A stretch of DNA of 39,844 nucleotides, taken from the IMG/VR virus record IMGVR_UViG_3300024520_000022, positions 1 to 39,844 of that record. The stretch is one strand, 5' to 3'. Within the stretch, counting starts at the first letter, position 1, and each line of letters starts with the position of its first letter. Shown in pieces: positions 20,945 through 39,432 of this stretch. The notes under the pieces were generated by a model that had not been told where the DNA came from, made no database searches, and saw nothing but the letters and a program-made list of their open reading frames with translations. The DNA is from a virus. The translations under genes and the position numbers were made by a program.

Positions 20945-20970
20945 TAAAAAACCCCCAGTTATTCTGGAGG
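20945..20970 (-). terminator. Rho-independent terminator overlapping a stop codon
   Basis: On the minus strand CCTCCAG (20970-20964) pairs with CTGGGGG (20958-20952) with one T-G wobble and a 5-base loop. Six T follow (complement of 20946-20951). The upstream arm encodes the last residues (PPPE) of the 76-residue gene and the loop contains its stop codon. Confidence 0.8.
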
Positions 20971-21189
20971 CGGTTTAGAGTAAAGCAGTGTATACGTGAG
21001 TAAGTGGTGTTTTGACTTACGTGAAAGCTGATCTGTACTGTGGTTTGGGTAGGCTTCTAGGTACTCGATGAGTAATGCTTGATAGTCCTGGTGGTACTCT
21101 GGATCAATAAGATTGAACGGGCAATGTCCCAGTTCTTTGCTTACTCTAATGTCAAAGTTTTCCAGGTTCCTGGCTAGTGTGTATTTCAT
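20959..21189 (-). CDS. Hypothetical protein
   Basis: A 76-residue protein. It is polar and His/Tyr-rich in the second half (YPNHSTDQLSRKSKHHLLTY) and ends in PPPE inside a terminator stem. It begins one base after the stop of the zinc-ribbon gene. Not recognised. The terminator implies that the group of small leader-headed genes ends here as a transcript unit. Confidence 0.55.
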   Translation of the reverse strand: MKYTLARNLENFDIRVSKELGHCPFNLIDPEYHQDYQALLIEYLEAYPNHSTDQLSRKSKHHLLTYTLLYSKPPPE

Positions 21190-21382: not shown

Positions 21383-21440
21383 AGGTAAGGATTAAAAAAC
21401 AAACGCCAAAGCCCCGTAAGGCTCTAGCATCTGGCTTTTA
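21383..21440 (-). promoter_or_regulatory. Intercistronic hairpin leader, copy 6
   Basis: On the minus strand CTAGAGCC (21427-21420) pairs with GGCTTTGG (21413-21406, two G-T wobbles). The hairpin is followed by a T-rich run and the leader box AATCCTTAC ending just before the ATG at 21382. It matches the family found before the next four genes upstream, but here the T run makes it terminator-like. Confidence 0.6.
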
Positions 21441-21890
21441 TTAGTTAGTTCTAAAGAGATAATACAAGTTGCCGTTTATTGTACTTTCTTCCTCTGAACC
21501 GTCGTATGGTGAAAGTGTATGTCCATAACCATCATAGCTACAATCTTTCATGAACTTTTCACTGTCAAAATAACATCTGTATGCCTCTGGTAATTCACAA
21601 AGCACGCAATCATCAATGTACTGGTCAATCTGGTCTTCCCATTCTTCTAATGTTTCTCCATCAGTAAGCACTCTATAATCTCCCTCTGACGTTTCTACTT
21701 CGTCGAGATGTTCTTCATTATAGAAATGTTCTTCAAGTTCAAGCCTTTCTTCTTTTGGAAGTGTTACATGTTCAAATAACATATCCAGTTTTTCACGTAC
21801 AATCGGATCCATAAGAATCTTTTGAGGATCGTTATTGAAAACGTCCTGTAAAGTTTTAGGCTTCAAGCCTTTTTTAAAGGTTTGCTTCAT
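21441..21890 (-). CDS. Acidic hypothetical early protein
   Basis: A 149-residue, strongly acidic protein (LELEEHFYNEEHLDEVETSE; EWEDQIDQYIDDCVLCELPE). It starts with a basic segment KQTFKKGLKPKTLQDVF. No domain is recognised. High acidity and early position are seen in DNA-mimic or host-takeover proteins, but that would be speculation here. Its start is preceded by a hairpin leader. Confidence 0.6.
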   Translation of the reverse strand: MKQTFKKGLKPKTLQDVFNNDPQKILMDPIVREKLDMLFEHVTLPKEERLELEEHFYNEEHLDEVETSEGDYRVLTDGETLEEWEDQIDQYIDDCVLCELPEAYRCYFDSEKFMKDCSYDGYGHTLSPYDGSEEESTINGNLYYLFRTN

Positions 21891-21948
21891 AGTGTATTTA
21901 GTTAAGGATAAAACACTAACGCCAAGGACAAGCCCTAGCGTTAAGGTT
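21891..21948 (-). promoter_or_regulatory. Intercistronic hairpin leader, copy 5
   Basis: On the minus strand AACGCTAGGG (21942-21933) pairs along 10 positions with CCTTGGCGTT (21927-21918) with a CTTGT loop, including T-G and G-T wobbles. The leader box GTGTTTTATCCTTAAC follows, then ACACT directly before the ATG at 21890. No Shine-Dalgarno sequence is present. Confidence 0.65.
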
Positions 21949-22290
21949 CTATACAGTCATCATCTCTTGAAATAATGTTTCTTTTATAAGTGTTCCACAT
22001 TCTCCATACTTTTGTACTATCCACTCAAAATCACGTTGTATCAATTTTGTATTGTAGTCCAAGTTCTCATTTATAGCCGTTTTTGTTGTTACCGTTCTAT
22101 AGCCCTCAGTTCGTAGCACCTTTTCGCCATTCTCTTTTTCCAGGACTATCTCAGTCAAATGAAGCCAGTGACCAATATCACTATCTGGATAGATTACTCG
22201 GTGTCGATTGTTTCCATCTTTTGTGATAGTACAGTAAGGAATGTTTCTTGACTGTAAAAACGCTCTCAATGCCGTTTTTGTCGTTCTCAT
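21949..22290 (-). CDS. Hypothetical early protein
   Basis: A 113-residue protein from the ATG at 22290, which lies right after the leader box; an in-frame upstream ATG at 22329 would run through the hairpin leader. The N-terminus RTTKTALRAFLQSRNIPYCT is helical; the middle is beta-rich (HRVIYPDSDIGHWLHLTEIV). Not recognised. Overall it looks like a small soluble early protein. Confidence 0.6.
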   Translation of the reverse strand: MRTTKTALRAFLQSRNIPYCTITKDGNNRHRVIYPDSDIGHWLHLTEIVLEKENGEKVLRTEGYRTVTTKTAINENLDYNTKLIQRDFEWIVQKYGECGTLIKETLFQEMMTV

Positions 22291-22354
22291 AGTGTTAGTT
22301 GTTAAGGATATAAACACCTCACAAGGCACAAGTAGTTTGTACCCTGTTAGCTAG
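22291..22354 (-). promoter_or_regulatory. Intercistronic hairpin leader, copy 4
   Basis: On the minus strand AGGGTACAA (22345-22337) pairs with TTGTGCCTT (22331-22323) over 9 positions with an ACTAC loop. It is followed by GTGTTTATATCCTTAAC and then AACACT directly before the ATG at 22290. Confidence 0.65.
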
Positions 22355-22585
22355 TTATATTATATCGAGCGTCTTCATTGCTTTGATTAGCTCATTGTTG
22401 ACGTTGGAAACGTTAGCTTGAATCATTTCTATACCTTGGACAAAGTCCCATTTTTCGCACATTTCAATACGTACCGCTTGCATATACTGAAGGAAACTCG
22501 CTTCTTTTGGCTTCATATTCTCAAGCATTCCGAGAATGAAATCCATACTTTTGACCTCTATAGCAGGCCCCTGTAAATTATTCAT
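22355..22585 (-). CDS. Hypothetical early protein
   Basis: A 76-residue, mainly helical protein (DFILGMLENMKPKEASFLQY; EMIQANVSNVNNELIKAMKT). No family is recognised. It follows a hairpin leader and precedes another. The length and lack of cysteines or charged tails suggest a compact helical bundle. Confidence 0.55.
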   Translation of the reverse strand: MNNLQGPAIEVKSMDFILGMLENMKPKEASFLQYMQAVRIEMCEKWDFVQGIEMIQANVSNVNNELIKAMKTLDII

Positions 22586-22645
22586 AGTGTTAGATAGTTA
22601 AGGAAATAAACACTCTCCAAGGCTCCTAGAAGCCCTAGAGGCTAT
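22586..22645 (-). promoter_or_regulatory. Intercistronic hairpin leader, copy 3
   Basis: On the minus strand CTCTAGGGCT (22640-22631) pairs with AGCCTTGGAG (22624-22615) over 10 positions with a TCTAGG loop. The box GTGTTTATTTCCTTAAC follows and AACACT touches the ATG at 22585. Sequence differs from the other copies in the arms while pairing is kept. Confidence 0.65.
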
Positions 22646-22930
22646 TTACTTTTTCCATGATTTGAAATCAATGTAATATGAGAGATTTTCACCACTCACT
22701 TTATCAAAAAAATCTATAGCCTGGTCTGCATGTTTTTCTTTCGTTGAATGTCTTTTAGGTGGACTTTCGTTGTATACGATTGTAAATATCATTTCTTTTT
22801 TAGGTACATATTTATGCACTATTGCATAGAATTGCTTTGAAATGTGATTCACATAAGTTGCGCCAGAGTAAGTCGTGCATACTGTTCTAACATCATAATC
22901 AATATCAGATATTGTTTTACAAGTGTTCAT
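22646..22930 (-). CDS. Hypothetical early protein
   Basis: A 94-residue protein from the ATG at 22930, directly after the leader box; the in-frame ATG at 22969 lies inside the hairpin. Beta-rich N-terminal half (AIVHKYVPKKEMIFTIVYNE) followed by SPPKRHSTKEKHADQAIDFF. It contains two cysteines near the N-terminus. Not recognised. Confidence 0.55.
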   Translation of the reverse strand: MNTCKTISDIDYDVRTVCTTYSGATYVNHISKQFYAIVHKYVPKKEMIFTIVYNESPPKRHSTKEKHADQAIDFFDKVSGENLSYYIDFKSWKK

Positions 22931-22989
22931 GTTGTGGAAGTTAAGAAACAAACATGTGACAAGGCTCATGACTGAACCCTGTTAACTGT
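22931..22989 (-). promoter_or_regulatory. Intercistronic hairpin leader, copy 2
   Basis: On the minus strand AGGGTTCA (22980-22973) pairs with TGAGCCTT (22968-22961) over 8 positions with a GTCA loop. The leader box is slightly diverged (TGTTTGTTTCTTAAC) and is followed by CACAAC and the ATG at 22930. Confidence 0.6.
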
Positions 22990-23100
22990 CTATTTATACT
23001 CATTCGACATACTAGCCAAATACTTTATAAACTGTTTACCTCTTCCAAGCGTATACCCCAGGAGGAAAAAGAAAGAATAAAAGATCATTGTTGTAAACAT
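22990..23100 (-). CDS. Small membrane peptide
   Basis: A 36-residue protein with one hydrophobic segment (residues 5-18, MIFYSFFFLLGYTL) then GRGKQFIKYL. Its start is preceded by a leader box without the hairpin (TTTATTTCTAACTACAAT), the same box as before the 61-residue gene upstream, which supports expression. Function unknown. Confidence 0.45.
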   Translation of the reverse strand: MFTTMIFYSFFFLLGYTLGRGKQFIKYLASMSNEYK

Positions 23101-23130
23101 ATTGTAGTTAGAAATAAATAAATTTTTTAT

Positions 23131-23316
23131 CTATAAGCAAAGTTCTGGTATTAGTCCGGCTTCCTCAAGTATCTCATTACGTTGCTTGATAGTGAAATTC
23201 TTTCTGTTACTCACTAACTCTATTAGTAAGTTCTCAGCCTGCTCAGAATCTAATTCATTTAATTCAAATTCACTGTATCCAAAATAATCAATTAGTGTTG
23301 CGTCGATGTCATGCAT
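23131..23316 (-). CDS. Hypothetical first early gene product
   Basis: A 61-residue acidic protein (DATLIDYFGYSEFELNELDS then EQAENLLIELVSNRKNF), first gene of the leftward operon. The short helical repeats resemble small phage host-interaction proteins in size only; no family is recognised. Preceded by the first hairpin leader and the leftward promoter candidate. Confidence 0.55.
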   Translation of the reverse strand: MHDIDATLIDYFGYSEFELNELDSEQAENLLIELVSNRKNFTIKQRNEILEEAGLIPELCL

Positions 23317-23369
23317 AATATTGTAGTTAGAAATAAATATCTAAAGACCTATACATTGTACAAGCCCTT
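23317..23369 (-). promoter_or_regulatory. Hairpin leader, copy 1 (head of early transcript)
   Basis: On the minus strand AAGGGCTTGTA (23369-23359) pairs with TATAGGTCTTT (23353-23343) over 11 positions (several wobbles) with a CAATG loop. It is followed by ATATTTATTTCTAACTACAAT before the ATG at 23316. It would be the 5' part of the early messenger. Confidence 0.55.
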
Positions 23370-23483
23370 AGTTATCGATTTGCCTAGTTGTGAAGGAGCA
23401 AGCTTTGTAGTTGTCTGTTGCTTTGTATGTATAAGATATAGGAGAGTATTATCTTATGCAAGTGGTTTAGTGATTAAAAGGAT

Positions 23484-23560: not shown

Positions 23561-23980
23561 ATGGAAAACATACTACCAGTACAGAAAAATAAAGGAGGAA
23601 GACCTAAGAAGTTTGCTTCTCCTCAGTGGATGAAAAAGCTTGCACAAGACTTCTTTATAAGATGTCAGAATGATGAAACAACGCCAACTGTCCTCGGATT
23701 CAGTTTACACTTAGATATACCTTATAGAACATTGTTGGATTATGGCAATGATGAAGAGTTTTCACCAGTGGTGGAGATGGTGAAGAGTAGATGTGAGAAC
23801 TGGTTGTTGCAGGATATGTTGAAAGGAAAGAGCAATGCAGCTACTGGGATGTTTATATTAAAGAACTTAGGTAAAGATAGATGGAAAGATAAGCAAGAAA
23901 TACAGACAAGTGGCACTACAGACCACATTATCAATGTTATGCAGTACAGTAAGAAGCTTGAAGATTCCAAGGACACTTAG
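23561..23980 (+). CDS. terS: Terminase small subunit (GP3-package-like)
   Basis: A 139-residue protein that recognises phage DNA for packaging. The N-terminus KNKGGRPKKFASP is the basic arm typical of the gp3-type small terminase family. Next come a helix-turn-helix-like LDIPYRTLLDYGNDEEFSPV and the central oligomerisation helix, then SNAATGMFILKNLGKDRWKD, the conserved A-x-x-FxLKN-xG-W end of this family. It lies about 8.6 kb upstream of the large subunit with fibre genes between, an unusual separation. Confidence 0.8.
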   Translation: MENILPVQKNKGGRPKKFASPQWMKKLAQDFFIRCQNDETTPTVLGFSLHLDIPYRTLLDYGNDEEFSPVVEMVKSRCENWLLQDMLKGKSNAATGMFILKNLGKDRWKDKQEIQTSGTTDHIINVMQYSKKLEDSKDT

Positions 23981-26934: not shown

Positions 26935-26945
26935 ACTAACGACTT

Positions 26946-27299
26946 ATGGCAGACACGAAGATTAGTGCATTAGTAGCGGTTACAACCCCCTTAGCGGGTA
27001 CAGAAACCCTCGCTATGGTACAAGGAGGAGTAACGAAGAAAGTGACCGTACAAGAATTTGATGATGCAGTTTCTGCTATAGGATTTTTCCATGACGAATA
27101 TGTTTCTGGGGTAGCTCAGACAGTATTCTCAGGATTTTCAGGTACATATACAATAGGTTCTAATAGATTGCAGGTGTGGAAGAACGGTATCCTTATGCGT
27201 AAGGGTGCTACGGAAGACTATCAGGAAACTAGCTCCTCAAGTATCACATTTAACTTTAACTGTGATTCTGGCGATTTTATAACTATACATCACGTGTAG
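26946..27299 (+). CDS. Tail-fibre-associated protein
   Basis: A 117-residue protein. The N-terminus ADTKISALVAVTTPLAGTET with LAMVQGGVTKKVTVQEFDDA is the short fibre N-terminal motif seen in many phage tail proteins. The C-terminal part (QVWKNGILMRKGATEDYQET then SSSITFNFNCDSGDFITIHHV) matches the small beta domain that closes fibres. A very similar C-terminal pattern (HVFLNGMKLYVGAGNDYTIS) occurs at the end of the next gene, suggesting a shared domain. Confidence 0.7.
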   Translation: MADTKISALVAVTTPLAGTETLAMVQGGVTKKVTVQEFDDAVSAIGFFHDEYVSGVAQTVFSGFSGTYTIGSNRLQVWKNGILMRKGATEDYQETSSSSITFNFNCDSGDFITIHHV

Positions 27300-28673: not shown

Positions 28674-28699
28674 CAATACATAATTAACGGAAACTACTT

Positions 28700-28945
28700 A
28701 TGGGTAAAAGAACAGTAAATACGCCTGATAAAAGAATTTCTTCAGGAAAGATCAATACACATATCGAAAGACTCACGGAAGAAATAAATGATCACAAGAA
28801 CGTAGTGGCTATGGGTAAGGATAAAATAAGAATAGCGACGGAATCTGTGGAGAACGTAGCTCGTCTACAGGAACAAAAAGAGGCTCAGGTAACTATTTTA
28901 CACGAATTATTAGGAGAAGATGACACAGACAAGGAGACCAGCTAG
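28700..28945 (+). CDS. Small coiled-coil protein, fibre chaperone or linker candidate
   Basis: An 81-residue protein, basic N-terminus (GKRTVNTPDKRISSGKI) then a long helix with heptads (HIERLTEEINDHKNVVAMGK; NVARLQEQKEAQVTILHELL). It overlaps the start of the spike gene by 26 bases, so the two are probably coupled. A structural or assembly role for the spike is inferred. Upstream is the recurring start context CGGAAACTACTT. Confidence 0.55.
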   Translation: MGKRTVNTPDKRISSGKINTHIERLTEEINDHKNVVAMGKDKIRIATESVENVARLQEQKEAQVTILHELLGEDDTDKETS

Positions 28946-31067
28946 ACATATATACGACCTAGAAGTTACTGATGGAGGTGGTTTAACAGTAAACGTTAAT
29001 CTAGGTAATATAGATGAACAAGGAAATGTTACTAATTTCACAGGAGTTTCAGCTCAAGTAGTTACTGATGCTACAACAAACTACGTAGAAATAATCTCGG
29101 GTTCAGTGAGTATTAATACGACTGGATTCACGGAAGGATCTGTGAGGCTTGCTGAAGTAGTTACTGCTGCTGGTTCAGTATCATCTATCACTGACAGGAG
29201 AGTGCTTTTTACGTCCGCAGGTGCAGCCGAGGCTAATACGGTAACAGTAGGACCAAAGAAAGAATACACGACGATACAGGGAGCTATAAACAGTATTACA
29301 ACTGCATCTATATCTAATGTATTTATTGTGGATATAGAGCCAGGAACGTATACAGAGAATTTGACGTTAAAGGATTGGGTGTTTCTTAAAGGAAGAAGTC
29401 AGTCATCAAAACTCTCAGGAAAAATAACACATGGAGGAAGCGCTACAGTAGAGATAGATAATCTCTTTATAGAGACTTCGGATGATTTCGCAGTTAATAT
29501 GAATGGAGCGGCTGATACATGTACACTGAAAATAACGAGATCACTTATGAATTGTGACTGGTCAGGTGACGCTTCACAGTTTCAAGGAGTATGTAGTCTT
29601 ACGAGAGGTCAGTTTGTTTGTTACGGGAATGATTTGAATATGGTAAAGACAACATCAGACGCTACGGCAGACCAGCAAAACACGGTCTTCTATGTATCTG
29701 GTGCAGAAAAAGTAGAACTAGACTCGTTTAATTGTATACAAAATATCCTTACGCAGGATTTGAATGCGGATGTATCTCTTCTTCACTCAAGGAATACTGA
29801 TGTGGAATCAAAGATGTTTGTGAAGGATGGGTTCTGTACGATACTTCTTCAGTCTACGGGATTACATGCGAATATAGTGACAACGTTTGAGATGGAAGCG
29901 GCTCAACATAGAAGTACATGTTCTGGAAATCTTGTGAGATGGGAGGCAGTAAACGCTACGGCTGCTGGATTAAAGTTCTTAGGAGCTCAAACAACTAACT
30001 CAGGAGTATCTACAGCGACGATGTTTATAAGTGATAACAGGTTCTTATGGGAAGGTGCTGGGATTACTGACAGTGATATATTCCTAGGATCTTCTACGCA
30101 CGCTAATGACAGGATGTATATGGGAGATAATATCTTCTTTACGACGGCTGACGTTATTCCAACAAGAGATACGGCTGTAGGATCATCTGGTCTTATGGAG
30201 TTCCTTGTAACGAACGGACAAGGTTCACAACAGGCTAGTGGAGGGTATACCTCTTCAGGCTCACTTACGGTGAACTCAGACTTCACTGGATCGAATATAG
30301 CTCAGTTTATAGGAGATAGTTTAACGACTGCTCAGTTAGCGAGATTCTCAAGTAATTCAGCAGATACAAGTACACGAAACTTAGTAGAAATAGTAAATGA
30401 TAACACGGCTGCTACAGGAACAGTACCTTTTAGAGTACAACAAGATGCGGTCGTTAATACGAACTTCAAGAAAGTTATCTCTATAGATAATATTATACAA
30501 TTTAAATCAGATGGTACAACTCCAGAAGGGAATTTATCGGGTGCTCTTGGTGACGTGTGTTTCAATGGTCCTAATGGGTTTATGTACAGATGTCAGGGAG
30601 GAACTACGTGGCAGAAGCTTACGCCGACAACGAATGATTATGCCTTTGCATCTGATGGAACAACACAAACTATAGCTGTAGCTACTACGTGGCAAGCTGT
30701 GACGTTTGATTCTAATACAACATTAGACGGATGGACTCATACTGCTACTACATCACCTTTTACGTGTCCAGAGAATGGGATATATCATTTTACTGTGAAT
30801 ACTTCTATAGAGAAGACGGTTGGAGCTGGTGGAGTGACGGGTGGAATACGTGCTACATTTAACGGCGCTATTATAGCTGGATCCCCTATGGGTACTACTG
30901 TTGGTGGTACTAATGCTCTTAGGAATATGTCTACTTCTGGGATATTCACTGGAGTATCTGGACAAGATTTTCAAATAGAGATTGTTGGTAGTACAGTAAA
31001 TGTTCAGATAACTACTGGATTTGCAGGTGCTGAATCGATTAATTTAACAATAACGAGAATACAATAA
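28920..31067 (+). CDS. Tail spike with beta-helix and C1q/TNF-like C-terminus
   Basis: A 715-residue protein. The N-terminal about 110 residues form an attachment domain. From about residue 118 (KKEYTTIQGAINSI then FIVDIEPGTYTENLTLKDWV) the pattern is that of right-handed beta-helix, pectin-lyase-like spikes, continuing to about residue 450. The C-terminal 140 residues (TTWQAVTFDSNTTLDGW; FTCPENGIYHFTVNTS) match the C1q/TNF jelly-roll layout used by phages as a trimer tip. It likely binds, and possibly cleaves, surface polysaccharide; no catalytic residues could be assigned. The stop overlaps the next start. Confidence 0.8.
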   Translation: MTQTRRPARHIYDLEVTDGGGLTVNVNLGNIDEQGNVTNFTGVSAQVVTDATTNYVEIISGSVSINTTGFTEGSVRLAEVVTAAGSVSSITDRRVLFTSAGAAEANTVTVGPKKEYTTIQGAINSITTASISNVFIVDIEPGTYTENLTLKDWVFLKGRSQSSKLSGKITHGGSATVEIDNLFIETSDDFAVNMNGAADTCTLKITRSLMNCDWSGDASQFQGVCSLTRGQFVCYGNDLNMVKTTSDATADQQNTVFYVSGAEKVELDSFNCIQNILTQDLNADVSLLHSRNTDVESKMFVKDGFCTILLQSTGLHANIVTTFEMEAAQHRSTCSGNLVRWEAVNATAAGLKFLGAQTTNSGVSTATMFISDNRFLWEGAGITDSDIFLGSSTHANDRMYMGDNIFFTTADVIPTRDTAVGSSGLMEFLVTNGQGSQQASGGYTSSGSLTVNSDFTGSNIAQFIGDSLTTAQLARFSSNSADTSTRNLVEIVNDNTAATGTVPFRVQQDAVVNTNFKKVISIDNIIQFKSDGTTPEGNLSGALGDVCFNGPNGFMYRCQGGTTWQKLTPTTNDYAFASDGTTQTIAVATTWQAVTFDSNTTLDGWTHTATTSPFTCPENGIYHFTVNTSIEKTVGAGGVTGGIRATFNGAIIAGSPMGTTVGGTNALRNMSTSGIFTGVSGQDFQIEIVGSTVNVQITTGFAGAESINLTITRIQ

Positions 31068-32386: not shown

Positions 32387-32551
32387 ATGAATACAAAGAT
32401 TAAATTAATGAGGTTCAAGACTATTGTTGGTTTTGAAAATGGAGTAAATGAATTCATCAAAACATTAGGACCAGATAATTTTATAAAACTTGATTTTATA
32501 CCAAAGACAACGGCTGATTATTATATAGCAATAGTGACGTACTTCGCATAA
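32387..32551 (+). CDS. Small hypothetical protein before terL
   Basis: A 54-residue protein (TKIKLMRFKTIVGFENGVNE, then FIKTLGPDNFIKLDFIPKTT). It has a ferredoxin-like strand/helix pattern by eye. Nine bases after the fibre stop and 16 before terL. Function unknown. Confidence 0.5.
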   Translation: MNTKIKLMRFKTIVGFENGVNEFIKTLGPDNFIKLDFIPKTTADYYIAIVTYFA

Positions 32552-32567
32552 TAACTAAGGAAACTGC

Positions 32568-34925
32568 ATGGAAATTGATTTACCATATAACTTCGAGCCT
32601 AGGGACTACCAAGTTCCTTTATGGTCTGCGTTCGATGATGGGTATAAACGTATAATGTATGTCTGGCATAGGCGTGCGGGGAAAGATATTAATAGTATCA
32701 ATCTTTTAGCGCGTGCGATGTACCAGAGGGTAGGAACCTACTTCTATCTTTTTCCTACGTATAAACAGGGGAAGAAGATTCTTTGGAATGGGATGAATAA
32801 AGACGGGTTTAAGTTCTTGCATTATATCCCGCCTGAACTTGTGGTACGGAAAGACAACACAGAGATGATCCTACAGACCACAAACGGCTCTATGATGCAG
32901 GTTATAGGTACAGATAATATGGACTGTTATGATGATGAGACTGAGATACTAACAAAAGATGGGTGGAAGTATTTTAAGGATATAGAAAAGGATGAAGTAG
33001 TAGCGACATTATCAGAAGATAATAATTTAGAGTATCACACAATAAATGAACGTGTATCATATAATTATGAAGGTGAAATGTATAAGGTGAAGAGTAAGGC
33101 GATGGATCTTCTTGTAACACCAAATCATAAGTTTTACGTAGAATCTAGGAAGGGTCAGAAGAAGTTTAAAGTGATCTCTAATGAAACAATTATAAATGAT
33201 GCTATTCCATCAACATGTTCTTGGCTTGGAAAAATAAAGAAGACCTTTTTATTACCTTCGGTAGAAAGGAGTAAGAACGATCACCATTCATTACAGAACC
33301 AGGAGTTTGATATGAAAGACTGGTGTATGTTTCTTGGTATCTATCTTTCAGAAGGGAGTGTATATAAAACTAAGAGTGGTGATTATAGAGTGTATATAAC
33401 ACAGAAGGATGAAGATAAGGGTGGAGTAAAGGGAAATGTATATGAAAAAATAAAAGATCTTTTAGATAGGATGGGATTAAAATATTCTTACGATGGGAAA
33501 AGTTTCCTTATAAATAATCGTGAGTTACATCTTTACTTAAAACAATTTGGGAATGTATATGAAAAACATGTTCCAAGAGAGATATTAGAATTAGATAAAG
33601 AATATTTACAATGTATTTTTGACTGGTTAGTATATGGGGATGGTTCTATACAAAAACATGGACAGGTAGATTATTATTCAACGTCAAAACAATTAATTGA
33701 TGATGTACAGGAACTTATTATAAAACTTGGGTACTCTGGAAATATACGTGTGAAGCAACAAAAACCTTCATATATTAATGGTAGAAAGATTGAAACAGAT
33801 AAACCTATGTATCAAATTACGTTACGTAAGAGTAAATATAAGAGGTTTTGTACATCTAAGGAATCATATATATCAAAAGAAGAATACAGGGGGAAGGTGT
33901 ACTGTGTAGATGTGAAGAATCACGTAATAAAAGTAAGGAGAAATGGGTTTGAAACGTGGTGTGGTAACAGTATCGTAGGAACGAATCCAGTAGGGTGTGT
34001 GTTCTCAGAGTACTCTCTACAGAATCCTGCGGCTTGGGATTTTATCTCTCCTATTTTAGCTGAGAACGGAGGTTGGGCTATCTTTGAGTTTACACCTAGA
34101 GGAGAGAATCATGCGTATGATCTCTTGAAGTATGCTGAGAACAACAAGAACTGGTTTACACAGGTACTTACTGTAGAAGACACGAAAGCTATACCAAGAG
34201 ATATCTTAGAGGAAGAACGGATGAACTTAATGCAGAGGTATGGAGATGATGCTTTTTACCAGCAAGAGTATATGTGTTCATTTAATGCACCACTACAGGG
34301 AGCATATTATGCTACGCAACTACAACAAGCTGAATCTGATGGTAGAATAACAAAAGTCCCACATGATTCTGCTACTGAGGTACATACATCATGGGATCTA
34401 GGGATGGATGACTCTACAACGATCTGGTTCTTTCAAGTTTGTGGACGTGAGATTCATTTTATTGATTACTTAGAAGAGTCTGGAGAAGGTCTTCAGTTTT
34501 ATGTAGAGAAATTAAAAGAAAAGAAAGATGCGGGTAAGTGGATATATGGGAAACATTATTTACCACATGATGTAGAGGTACGTGAAATGGGTACAGGAAA
34601 GAGTAGACGACAAACATTACAAAGTTTAGGTATCACGAATATAAAGGTAGTTCCAAGAATCCCTAGTATCCAGCACGGGATCCAGCAGGTACGTAATATC
34701 TTATCGAGGTGTTGGTTTGATAGGGAAAATTGTAAGACAGGAATTAACGCTATGAAGGCGTACAAGAAAGAGTATGATGAAAAAAACCAGGTGTATAAAT
34801 CACGTCCCTTACATGACTGGTCTTCTCATGCTGCTGATGGATTCCGTACATTTGCTTGTGGGTATAAAGATATCATTCAACAGGTAGTGGAGCATGTTCC
34901 TATGGAGTTTGATCCATATGACTGA
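32568..34925 (+). CDS. terL: Terminase large subunit interrupted by an intein
   Basis: A 785-residue precursor; removing the intein (residues 120-467) leaves a 437-residue packaging motor. The ATPase has WHRRAGKD as Walker A (about residues 33-40) and GCVFSEYSLQNP with the Walker B acidic residue just after the splice point. The nuclease half has TSWDLGMDDS, YLPHDV and LHDWSSHAADGF, the RNase H-type metal residues that cut concatemers. It is followed by the portal gene, its docking partner. The start context AAGGAAACTGC is shared with other late genes. Function depends on splicing. Confidence 0.92.
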   Translation: MEIDLPYNFEPRDYQVPLWSAFDDGYKRIMYVWHRRAGKDINSINLLARAMYQRVGTYFYLFPTYKQGKKILWNGMNKDGFKFLHYIPPELVVRKDNTEMILQTTNGSMMQVIGTDNMDCYDDETEILTKDGWKYFKDIEKDEVVATLSEDNNLEYHTINERVSYNYEGEMYKVKSKAMDLLVTPNHKFYVESRKGQKKFKVISNETIINDAIPSTCSWLGKIKKTFLLPSVERSKNDHHSLQNQEFDMKDWCMFLGIYLSEGSVYKTKSGDYRVYITQKDEDKGGVKGNVYEKIKDLLDRMGLKYSYDGKSFLINNRELHLYLKQFGNVYEKHVPREILELDKEYLQCIFDWLVYGDGSIQKHGQVDYYSTSKQLIDDVQELIIKLGYSGNIRVKQQKPSYINGRKIETDKPMYQITLRKSKYKRFCTSKESYISKEEYRGKVYCVDVKNHVIKVRRNGFETWCGNSIVGTNPVGCVFSEYSLQNPAAWDFISPILAENGGWAIFEFTPRGENHAYDLLKYAENNKNWFTQVLTVEDTKAIPRDILEEERMNLMQRYGDDAFYQQEYMCSFNAPLQGAYYATQLQQAESDGRITKVPHDSATEVHTSWDLGMDDSTTIWFFQVCGREIHFIDYLEESGEGLQFYVEKLKEKKDAGKWIYGKHYLPHDVEVREMGTGKSRRQTLQSLGITNIKVVPRIPSIQHGIQQVRNILSRCWFDRENCKTGINAMKAYKKEYDEKNQVYKSRPLHDWSSHAADGFRTFACGYKDIIQQVVEHVPMEFDPYD
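32925..33968 (+). mobile_element. Intein with LAGLIDADG homing endonuclease inside terL
   Basis: A 348-residue insertion in frame. Block A begins with Cys (CYDDETEILTKDGWKYF). Block B is LLVTPNHKFYV with the TxxH motif. Two LAGLIDADG-like helices follow (WCMFLGIYLSEGS and FDWLVYGDGSI). The end is block F (KVYCVDVKNHVIKV) and NGFETWCGN, then Ser as +1 residue. The penultimate residue is Gly instead of the usual His, a rare but known change. The site separates Walker A from Walker B. It is a mobile protein intron; both splicing and DNA cleavage appear intact by motif. Confidence 0.92.
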
Positions 34926-37287: not shown

Positions 37288-37343
37288 TCTCCACCAACGT
37301 ATCGTTCGCCACGAGATACTACGGTGTGTAATGGAAACAACTT

Positions 37344-37997
37344 ATGGCTGAAGAACAAAACCCAGTAGTAGAAGAGCAATTACAGGCTGCTCCTGAAGTT
37401 ACTGAGACGGTAGAAATACCAACACAAGAAGATGTCCCTGCTGAAGTTTCTCCTTTGGATACTACCGAAGTGATACAGGAAACTGATGAGGATACACCAC
37501 CTGTTAAGAAGACTCCCAATGATTTTATCTTGGAACGTCTGGCTAAAAAGAAGAAGGAAGCACAGGACGAAGCTGAAGTTCTCAAGCAGAGACTAGCTGA
37601 CCTGGAAAACCAAAAATCAACAGAACAACTTGCGAATGAAGCAACGAATGAACTGGTCCAACAAAACCAACAACTCCAACGACAAATTGATGTACGAAGG
37701 TTCGTGGAAGAACAACCTGACTTCAAGAAGTACGAGGAGAAGATGAATAAGTGGTCCGAACATCCGTCTTACGCGAATATCCCTGTCCAACAACTAGCAT
37801 TTGCTGTTGCGGGTACGGAACTTATCCGAGTAGGAGCCAACCAAGCTGCACAGGCAGATATGGAGGCTGCATCCACGCATGTATCTGGAAATGTCTCTCT
37901 AGCACAGACAAACAAAACTCCTAAACTTGCCAGTGAAATGACAGACGAAGAGTTTGAAGCTGAGGTAAAAGCCATAAAGAGAAAAGGCTTTAACTAA
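37344..37997 (+). CDS. Scaffolding protein
   Basis: A 217-residue protein directly before the major capsid gene. It has an acidic Glu/Pro/Val-rich N-terminus (residues 1-55), a long charged coiled coil (about 60-120: LAKKKKEAQDEAEVLKQRLA then ELVQQNQQLQRQID), and a C-terminal SEMTDEEFEAEVKAIKRKGF with a basic tip, the helix-turn-helix end that binds capsid protein in other phage scaffolds. Composition and position agree; no sequence family name is claimed. Start context TGGAAACAACTT. Confidence 0.8.
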   Translation: MAEEQNPVVEEQLQAAPEVTETVEIPTQEDVPAEVSPLDTTEVIQETDEDTPPVKKTPNDFILERLAKKKKEAQDEAEVLKQRLADLENQKSTEQLANEATNELVQQNQQLQRQIDVRRFVEEQPDFKKYEEKMNKWSEHPSYANIPVQQLAFAVAGTELIRVGANQAAQADMEAASTHVSGNVSLAQTNKTPKLASEMTDEEFEAEVKAIKRKGFN

Positions 37998-38976: not shown

Positions 38977-39018
38977 TAGCAACTGGAAACTGCTCATTAT
39001 TTTTAAATTAAACTGCTT

Positions 39019-39432
39019 ATGGATACTATAAAAAAAGAAGTAAATATGGAAAAAACACCTACGTTAAAACCAGTTCAGCCTGAGAAAAAAGTTGAGAAAG
39101 TAAAAGCTGAGGTTATAGAAACAAGTAAAGGTCTCACGAAAAAAGGAATAGAAGATCTTAAAAACAAGAACTTCCCTAAATATGTTGAACATATGATAGA
39201 GAACGGACCAAAGATAAAGATGATGATCCCTTATAAAGGAACAGGATCAGGTAAAGGACAGGTACAACCGTTCACTGTACAGGGTGTTCAATTCGTATAT
39301 CCTGTAAATGAGATCGTTGATCTTCCTATACAATTCGCTGAAATGGTAGCTGAGAGATTCGGCATCACTTCCTCAGAATTATCTGATAGATACAGTCTCA
39401 CAAAAAACCCTAAACTATCTGAAGGATTATAA
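39019..39432 (+). CDS. Small head-associated protein
   Basis: A 137-residue protein with a Lys/Glu/Val-rich, low-complexity N-terminal third (KTPTLKPVQPEKKVEKVKAE) and a compact C-terminal domain (IKMMIPYKGTGSGKGQVQPF; TVQGVQFVYPVNEIVDLPIQ). An in-frame second ATG (MEKTP) is 10 codons on. It lies between major capsid and the adaptor, a place often held by head decoration or head-completion proteins. Function is not established. Confidence 0.6.
   Translation: MDTIKKEVNMEKTPTLKPVQPEKKVEKVKAEVIETSKGLTKKGIEDLKNKNFPKYVEHMIENGPKIKMMIPYKGTGSGKGQVQPFTVQGVQFVYPVNEIVDLPIQFAEMVAERFGITSSELSDRYSLTKNPKLSEGL

Follow-up and report, generated by a model that had tools for sequence, protein, structure and literature searches.

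A reiterated hairpin leader in the intercistronic gaps of a small-gene operon of a tailed phage

Bacteria that lack Shine-Dalgarno (SD) sequences, and their viruses, mark and regulate translation starts in ways that are poorly understood. In standby-site or open-leader initiation, a hairpin adjoins single-stranded RNA on which the 30S subunit can settle, the classical cases also having an SD, and in the early region of phage T7 the hairpins between genes are cut by RNase III. The T4 protein RegA acts on about 30 mRNAs through sites that lack clear structure, and the gp43 operator of T4 and RB69 is a hairpin with a conserved loop that serves a single gene (PMC3014915). Here we describe a leader that is reiterated within one phage operon and thus provides natural replicates for establishing which bases and pairs matter.

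The source is a 39,844-base IMG/VR virus record, analysed over its whole length (the window), from a tailed phage with terminase, portal and capsid genes. We identified a minus-strand operon of eight small open reading frames (ORFs), spanning about 23450 to 20945, which starts at about 23.4 kb and ends in a terminator-like hairpin. Its genes are probably early, judging from gene order and from what they encode, one of them having a weak match to ArdA antirestriction proteins; profile searches assigned no confident families to the operon's early proteins. The element, or its box, occupies every gap of the operon but the last, where stop and start codons touch. Stop and start codons also touch at many ordinary genes of the window, and no such leader is present there. 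The hairpins (H1) listed below were identified by folding. The covariance model R1 was trained on copies c2 to c6, and the whole window was scanned with it without filters.

23341 to 23371, minus strand: H1 of c1, in the leader of the first gene; 14 bp with 4 G.U pairs and a diverged core, AGGG/TCTT; weak R1 match (11.6 bits)
23318 to 23339, minus strand: box of c1, TATTTATTTCTAACTACAATAT; exact 22-nt repeat of the c1b box
23131 to 23316, minus strand: ORF A, the first gene of the operon, 61 aa; no confident family
23099 to 23120, minus strand: c1b, a box without a stable hairpin (gap 23099 to 23130), preceding a 36-aa ORF; exact 22-nt copy of the c1 box
22959 to 22982, minus strand: H1 of c2, 10 bp
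22940 to 22953, minus strand: box of c2, GTTTGTTTCTTAAC
22615 to 22640, minus strand: H1 of c3, 10-11 bp
22597 to 22611, minus strand: box of c3, GTTTATTTCCTTAAC
22321 to 22347, minus strand: H1 of c4, 11 bp
22301 to 22315, minus strand: box of c4, GTTTATATCCTTAAC
21918 to 21942, minus strand: H1 of c5, 10 bp, extendable to 12
21901 to 21914, minus strand: box of c5, GTTTTATCCTTAAC
21441 to 21890, minus strand: ORF F, 149 aa, headed by c5; weak ArdA antirestriction similarity (E 5e-4, below the Pfam cut-off; phrog_2059, E 1.2e-3)
21400 to 21433, minus strand: H1 of c6, 14-15 bp, directly followed by TTTTTT; the most terminator-like copy
20951 to 20971, minus strand: intrinsic-terminator-like hairpin at the operon end, CCTCCAG..CTGGGGG TTTTTT, from a terminator scan

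The six hairpins named in a preliminary description of this DNA were recovered at, or within a few nucleotides of, the coordinates given there. Their stems proved longer than the 8-11 bp claimed, at 10-15 bp, with no mispairs and 2-4 G.U pairs each. An inner AGGG...CCTT pairing had been described as conserved throughout; this holds for c2 to c5, but c6 has AGAG/CTTT and c1 has AGGG/TCTT, giving the consensus AGRG/YYTT. The spacing is regular, with 5-7 nt from the upstream stop codon to H1 in c2 to c6, and 27-30 nt from H1 to the ATG in c2 to c5 (17 nt in c6). An AU-rich single-stranded stretch lies 3' of each hairpin. The pyrimidine-rich box, also 3' of H1, reads TTTATnTCCTTAAC in c3 and c4 with variants in the other copies, and stands 15-17 nt from the ATG in c2 to c5. 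The box had been called near-constant, which fits three copies: GTGTTTATnTCCTTAAC is exact in c3 and c4 only and one base shorter in c5, but the box is diverged in c2 and c1 and poor in c6. A seventh gap, c1b, which carries the box without H1, had been overlooked. As a separate observation, TTTCCTTA of the c3 box (22597-22604, minus strand) can pair through 8 nt with TAAGGAAA, which lies in the leader of the terminase gene (32550-32567, plus strand); the match is possibly due to chance.

The gaps folded with z-scores between -2.4 and -4.8, and of 300 dinucleotide shuffles 0-7 were equally stable. In all six copies the mRNA strand (-14.2 to -24.4 kcal/mol) was far more stable than the opposite strand (-3.4 to -12.6 kcal/mol), a difference to be expected where RNA tolerates G.U pairs or selection favours them. 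Because each stem contains 2-4 G.U pairs and the gaps fold far better on the mRNA strand, H1 is an RNA-level feature of that strand, and by stability above shuffles and G.U-based strand specificity it behaves as structured RNA. The view that a reiterated RNA element occupies this operon thus stands, since the hairpin is confined to the mRNA strand of the gaps between genes in this operon. The strong R1 matches in the window are c2 to c6 only, as follows from the construction of the model, and c1 and c1b score at noise level.

Compensatory change within one genome had also been proposed, and the outer arms do vary while pairing is kept. This evidence is nevertheless thin. Copies c2 and c4 have one stem version in common and c5 and c6 another, so that the arms within each of these pairs are interchangeable and there are about four independent stem versions, not six. 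Across c2 to c6, 97.2% of cells are paired and two pairs are changed on both sides, but 41 of 500 shuffles do as well. The covariation of H1 is real but modest, suggestive, and confined to one genome.

No copy of the element was found outside the window. Comparison with Rfam, a check suggested in the preliminary description, yielded no covariance-model match above the gathering threshold anywhere in the window; the FopS family matched at c3 (E 2.3) and c4 (E 5), but on the opposite strand and at chance level, and these hits were discarded. Two exact pattern scans of IMG/VR and a blastn search of 50,697 phage records returned no copy of the element, and megablast or distant blastn searches against phages gave nothing or a chance match of 33 nt. 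The covariance-model search of related phages that had likewise been suggested produced no significant match in 1.48 Mb (best 17.6 bits, E 0.83). Relatives were sought with several proteins. The ArdA-like protein retrieved no close relatives; the Rad52-like early-gene protein retrieved one distant contig, in which R1 finds no copy; relatives by the major capsid protein (L002 to L025) have essentially only the capsid gene in common with the window phage. The portal protein retrieved 80 contigs with 38-49% identity that share the structural module, but none of the operon's ORFs has a homologue at these 80 loci. As far as we searched, the leader appears to be private to this phage. One related contig, within a metagenome-assembled genome labelled Verrucomicrobiota, contains a group I intron (L051:11473-11661).

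Many of the portal relatives carry a different hairpin upstream of the portal gene, which closes on or includes the portal AUG and has the loop GGAAAUCGCC(A).

L066:3354-3383, upstream of the portal gene: portal-gene hairpin
G057:C1:2828-2857, upstream of the portal gene: portal-gene hairpin
L062, L104, L063, G029, G043, L069 and others: portal-gene hairpin at the same place

The stems of this hairpin differ while pairing is kept (CATAACTTG..CAAGTTATG, ATAGTTGG..CCAACTAT, CATAATTGG..CCGGTTATG), and among 42 elements none of 5000 arm permutations pair as well as the elements' own arms. It is the best covariation evidence in this analysis and an element distinct from H1; the window's own portal leader lacks it. 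It looks like an undescribed translational operator in an SD-less phage family, and its covariation support makes it suitable for building a covariance model and for binding tests. Several relatives have their own reiterated boxes before small genes with no conserved hairpin. On the minus strand of G070:C1, AATAACAATAAGAGAT directly precedes the ATG of three small genes (starting at 29888, 30191 and 30630), and on the plus strand of G063:C1, AAGTCCTYAATAAGAATAATTAAA occurs three times, before small genes near 23567, 24465 and 24929.

Two further features of the window were noted. The segment 14994-15098 (minus strand) resembles a tRNA in its matching ends (GGTAATG/CATTACC) and in a T-arm-like GGTTCGAATCC, and drew no ARAGORN or Rfam call. 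In the large terminase subunit gene (32568-34925, plus strand), profile matches to phrog_85 and phrog_12229, families known to bear inteins, precede the terminase part; by these matches the subunit seems to carry an intein.

The absence of an SD, reported as a property of the leaders, is correct in that none is present. In the window, however, every gene group does without one, and most of the related phages lack it too. The absence is therefore a trait of the whole genome and of most relatives, and is uninformative about the element. The motif AACACT does touch the ATG in c3 and c4 (ACACT in c5), as had been described for the best copies, but a similar AACnnCTTATG heads four late genes. These four starts (26938-26948, 28692-28702, 37336-37346 and 39011-39021, plus strand; 0.48 expected by chance) suggest a possible late-gene start box, and two of them read GGAAACnnCTTATG.

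We tentatively read each gap as a cis-acting RNA leader that may serve as a translation-start module for its gene, a reading that we consider plausible though somewhat short of probable; regulation by the leader, like the earlier claim of a regulon, is unproven. Read from the 5' end, such a module would consist of the stop codon of the preceding gene, a spacer of 5-7 nt, H1, a largely unpaired pyrimidine-rich segment of 17-30 nt that holds the box, and the AUG. H1 would sequester the RNA next to the upstream gene, while the box and the AUG would remain accessible for the 30S subunit to land on, and in a host and phage clade without SD each small gene could start translation independently. In most copies, H1 would sit just beyond the expected initiation footprint. 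A ribosome terminating upstream would open the 5' arm of H1, and re-initiation could then depend on upstream translation. More speculatively, the AGRG/YYUU core with its G.U pairs, together with the UCCUUAAC box, may bind a phage or host factor.

Consistent with such a module, the predicted openness of positions -16 to +3 has a mean of 0.72 in the genes with the element. The mean falls to 0.61 when H1 is scrambled; the window's other genes stand at 0.56 and random positions at 0.49. The effect is modest, however, and absent in c6, and in silico deletion of H1 leaves the region open in four of the five copies besides c6. Such a leader is also missing from many ordinary genes of this phage, and there is no homologue among our search results against which conservation could show. 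Hairpins in the relatives, on the other side, speak for the module: ahead of gene starts, strong ones outnumber those in dinucleotide shuffles about 3.5- to 7-fold whatever their position, and weaker ones show a mild peak where the 3' end falls 16-23 nt upstream of the ATG.

Several H1 copies bear terminator-like U-rich tails, and leaky intrinsic termination is a strong rival to the translation-start module, even if we consider it rather unlikely in itself. H1 and its U-rich tail would end some transcripts and thereby grade expression along the operon, possibly with an antitermination override. Copies c1, c3, c5 and c6 satisfy a lenient terminator rule, the region holding 6 such sites where 1.3 are expected, and c6 is followed by a run of six T. 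Yet c2 and c4 fail even the lenient rule, tails such as GAGGTGTTTATATCC contain few consecutive T, and a clearly better terminator lies at the operon end (20971-20951). Termination, moreover, would not require what c2 to c5 have kept, a box downstream of the U-rich part at a conserved distance from the ATG.

The conserved core and box also suggest specific recognition, for which plain insulation of a start site has no need. A translational operator regulon, in which a phage RNA-binding protein acts at the H1 core, the box or both and represses or activates the early mRNAs together in the manner of RegA or gp43 of T4, is a further reading to which we give a low probability. A bound phage protein would best explain why the core and box are conserved while the stem arms vary, and the portal hairpins of the relatives, with their conserved loop, close on an AUG. 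In a variant of this reading, closure on the AUG could come from a weak second hairpin, GUGUU/AACAC and variants. It appears when the gap is folded alone, and in five copies its complementary arms flank the box, but it is poorly stable in context: in the copies besides c1 and c1b its pairing probability within 160 nt is 0.0-0.11, and closure on the AUG was accordingly demoted to a possibility. Its 3' arm also resembles the start context of other genes. Among the early proteins, to which profile searches assigned no confident families, no candidate binding protein was recognised.

A broader conjecture, which we likewise doubt, is a phage-specific start code replacing the SD. One trans-acting factor (a phage protein or a modified ribosome) would recognise H1 and the box and switch all genes of the operon together, and the relatives would use other reiterated boxes and the AUG-sequestering portal hairpin.

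RNA processing is distinctly unlikely. A host RNase would cut H1, or the AU-rich segment after it, to yield monocistronic messages, as might befit a single hairpin per gap among small genes with an AU-rich single strand following each; stems of 10-15 bp are, however, short for RNase III, processing is less needed in the 5' leader, where c1 lies, and the c1b gap has no hairpin. An element of double-stranded DNA (operators, stoperators or promoters in the gaps) is very improbable, because, although GTTTATTTCCTTAAC is near-palindromic and c3 has inverted arms AGTGTT/AACACT, the half-site spacing varies by several nucleotides, the conserved G.U pairs would not form a palindrome in DNA, and promoter-like -35/-10 matches are at chance level (11 against 9.9 expected in the region).

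Compared with known systems, the leader resembles intrinsic terminators and intercistronic attenuators in having a short hairpin and, in some copies, a T-rich tail, but its T-tract is weak in most copies and its core and box are conserved. As at the RNase III sites of the T7 early region, a hairpin lies between successive genes; here the stems are shorter and regular, and a conserved box follows. The combination of hairpin and open stretch is that of a standby site, here repeated along one operon of a genome without SD. With the gp43 and RegA systems of T4 and RB69 it has in common RNA sites near gene starts, which in those systems lie next to or overlap the AUG (PMC3014915); in the present operon, a hairpin stands 17-30 nt upstream of six AUGs, with the box outside the hairpin, as a candidate operator only. 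Termination-reinitiation coupling (PMC6728339) similarly links neighbouring stop and start codons, whereas here a folded spacer of 58-64 nt lies between stop and start.
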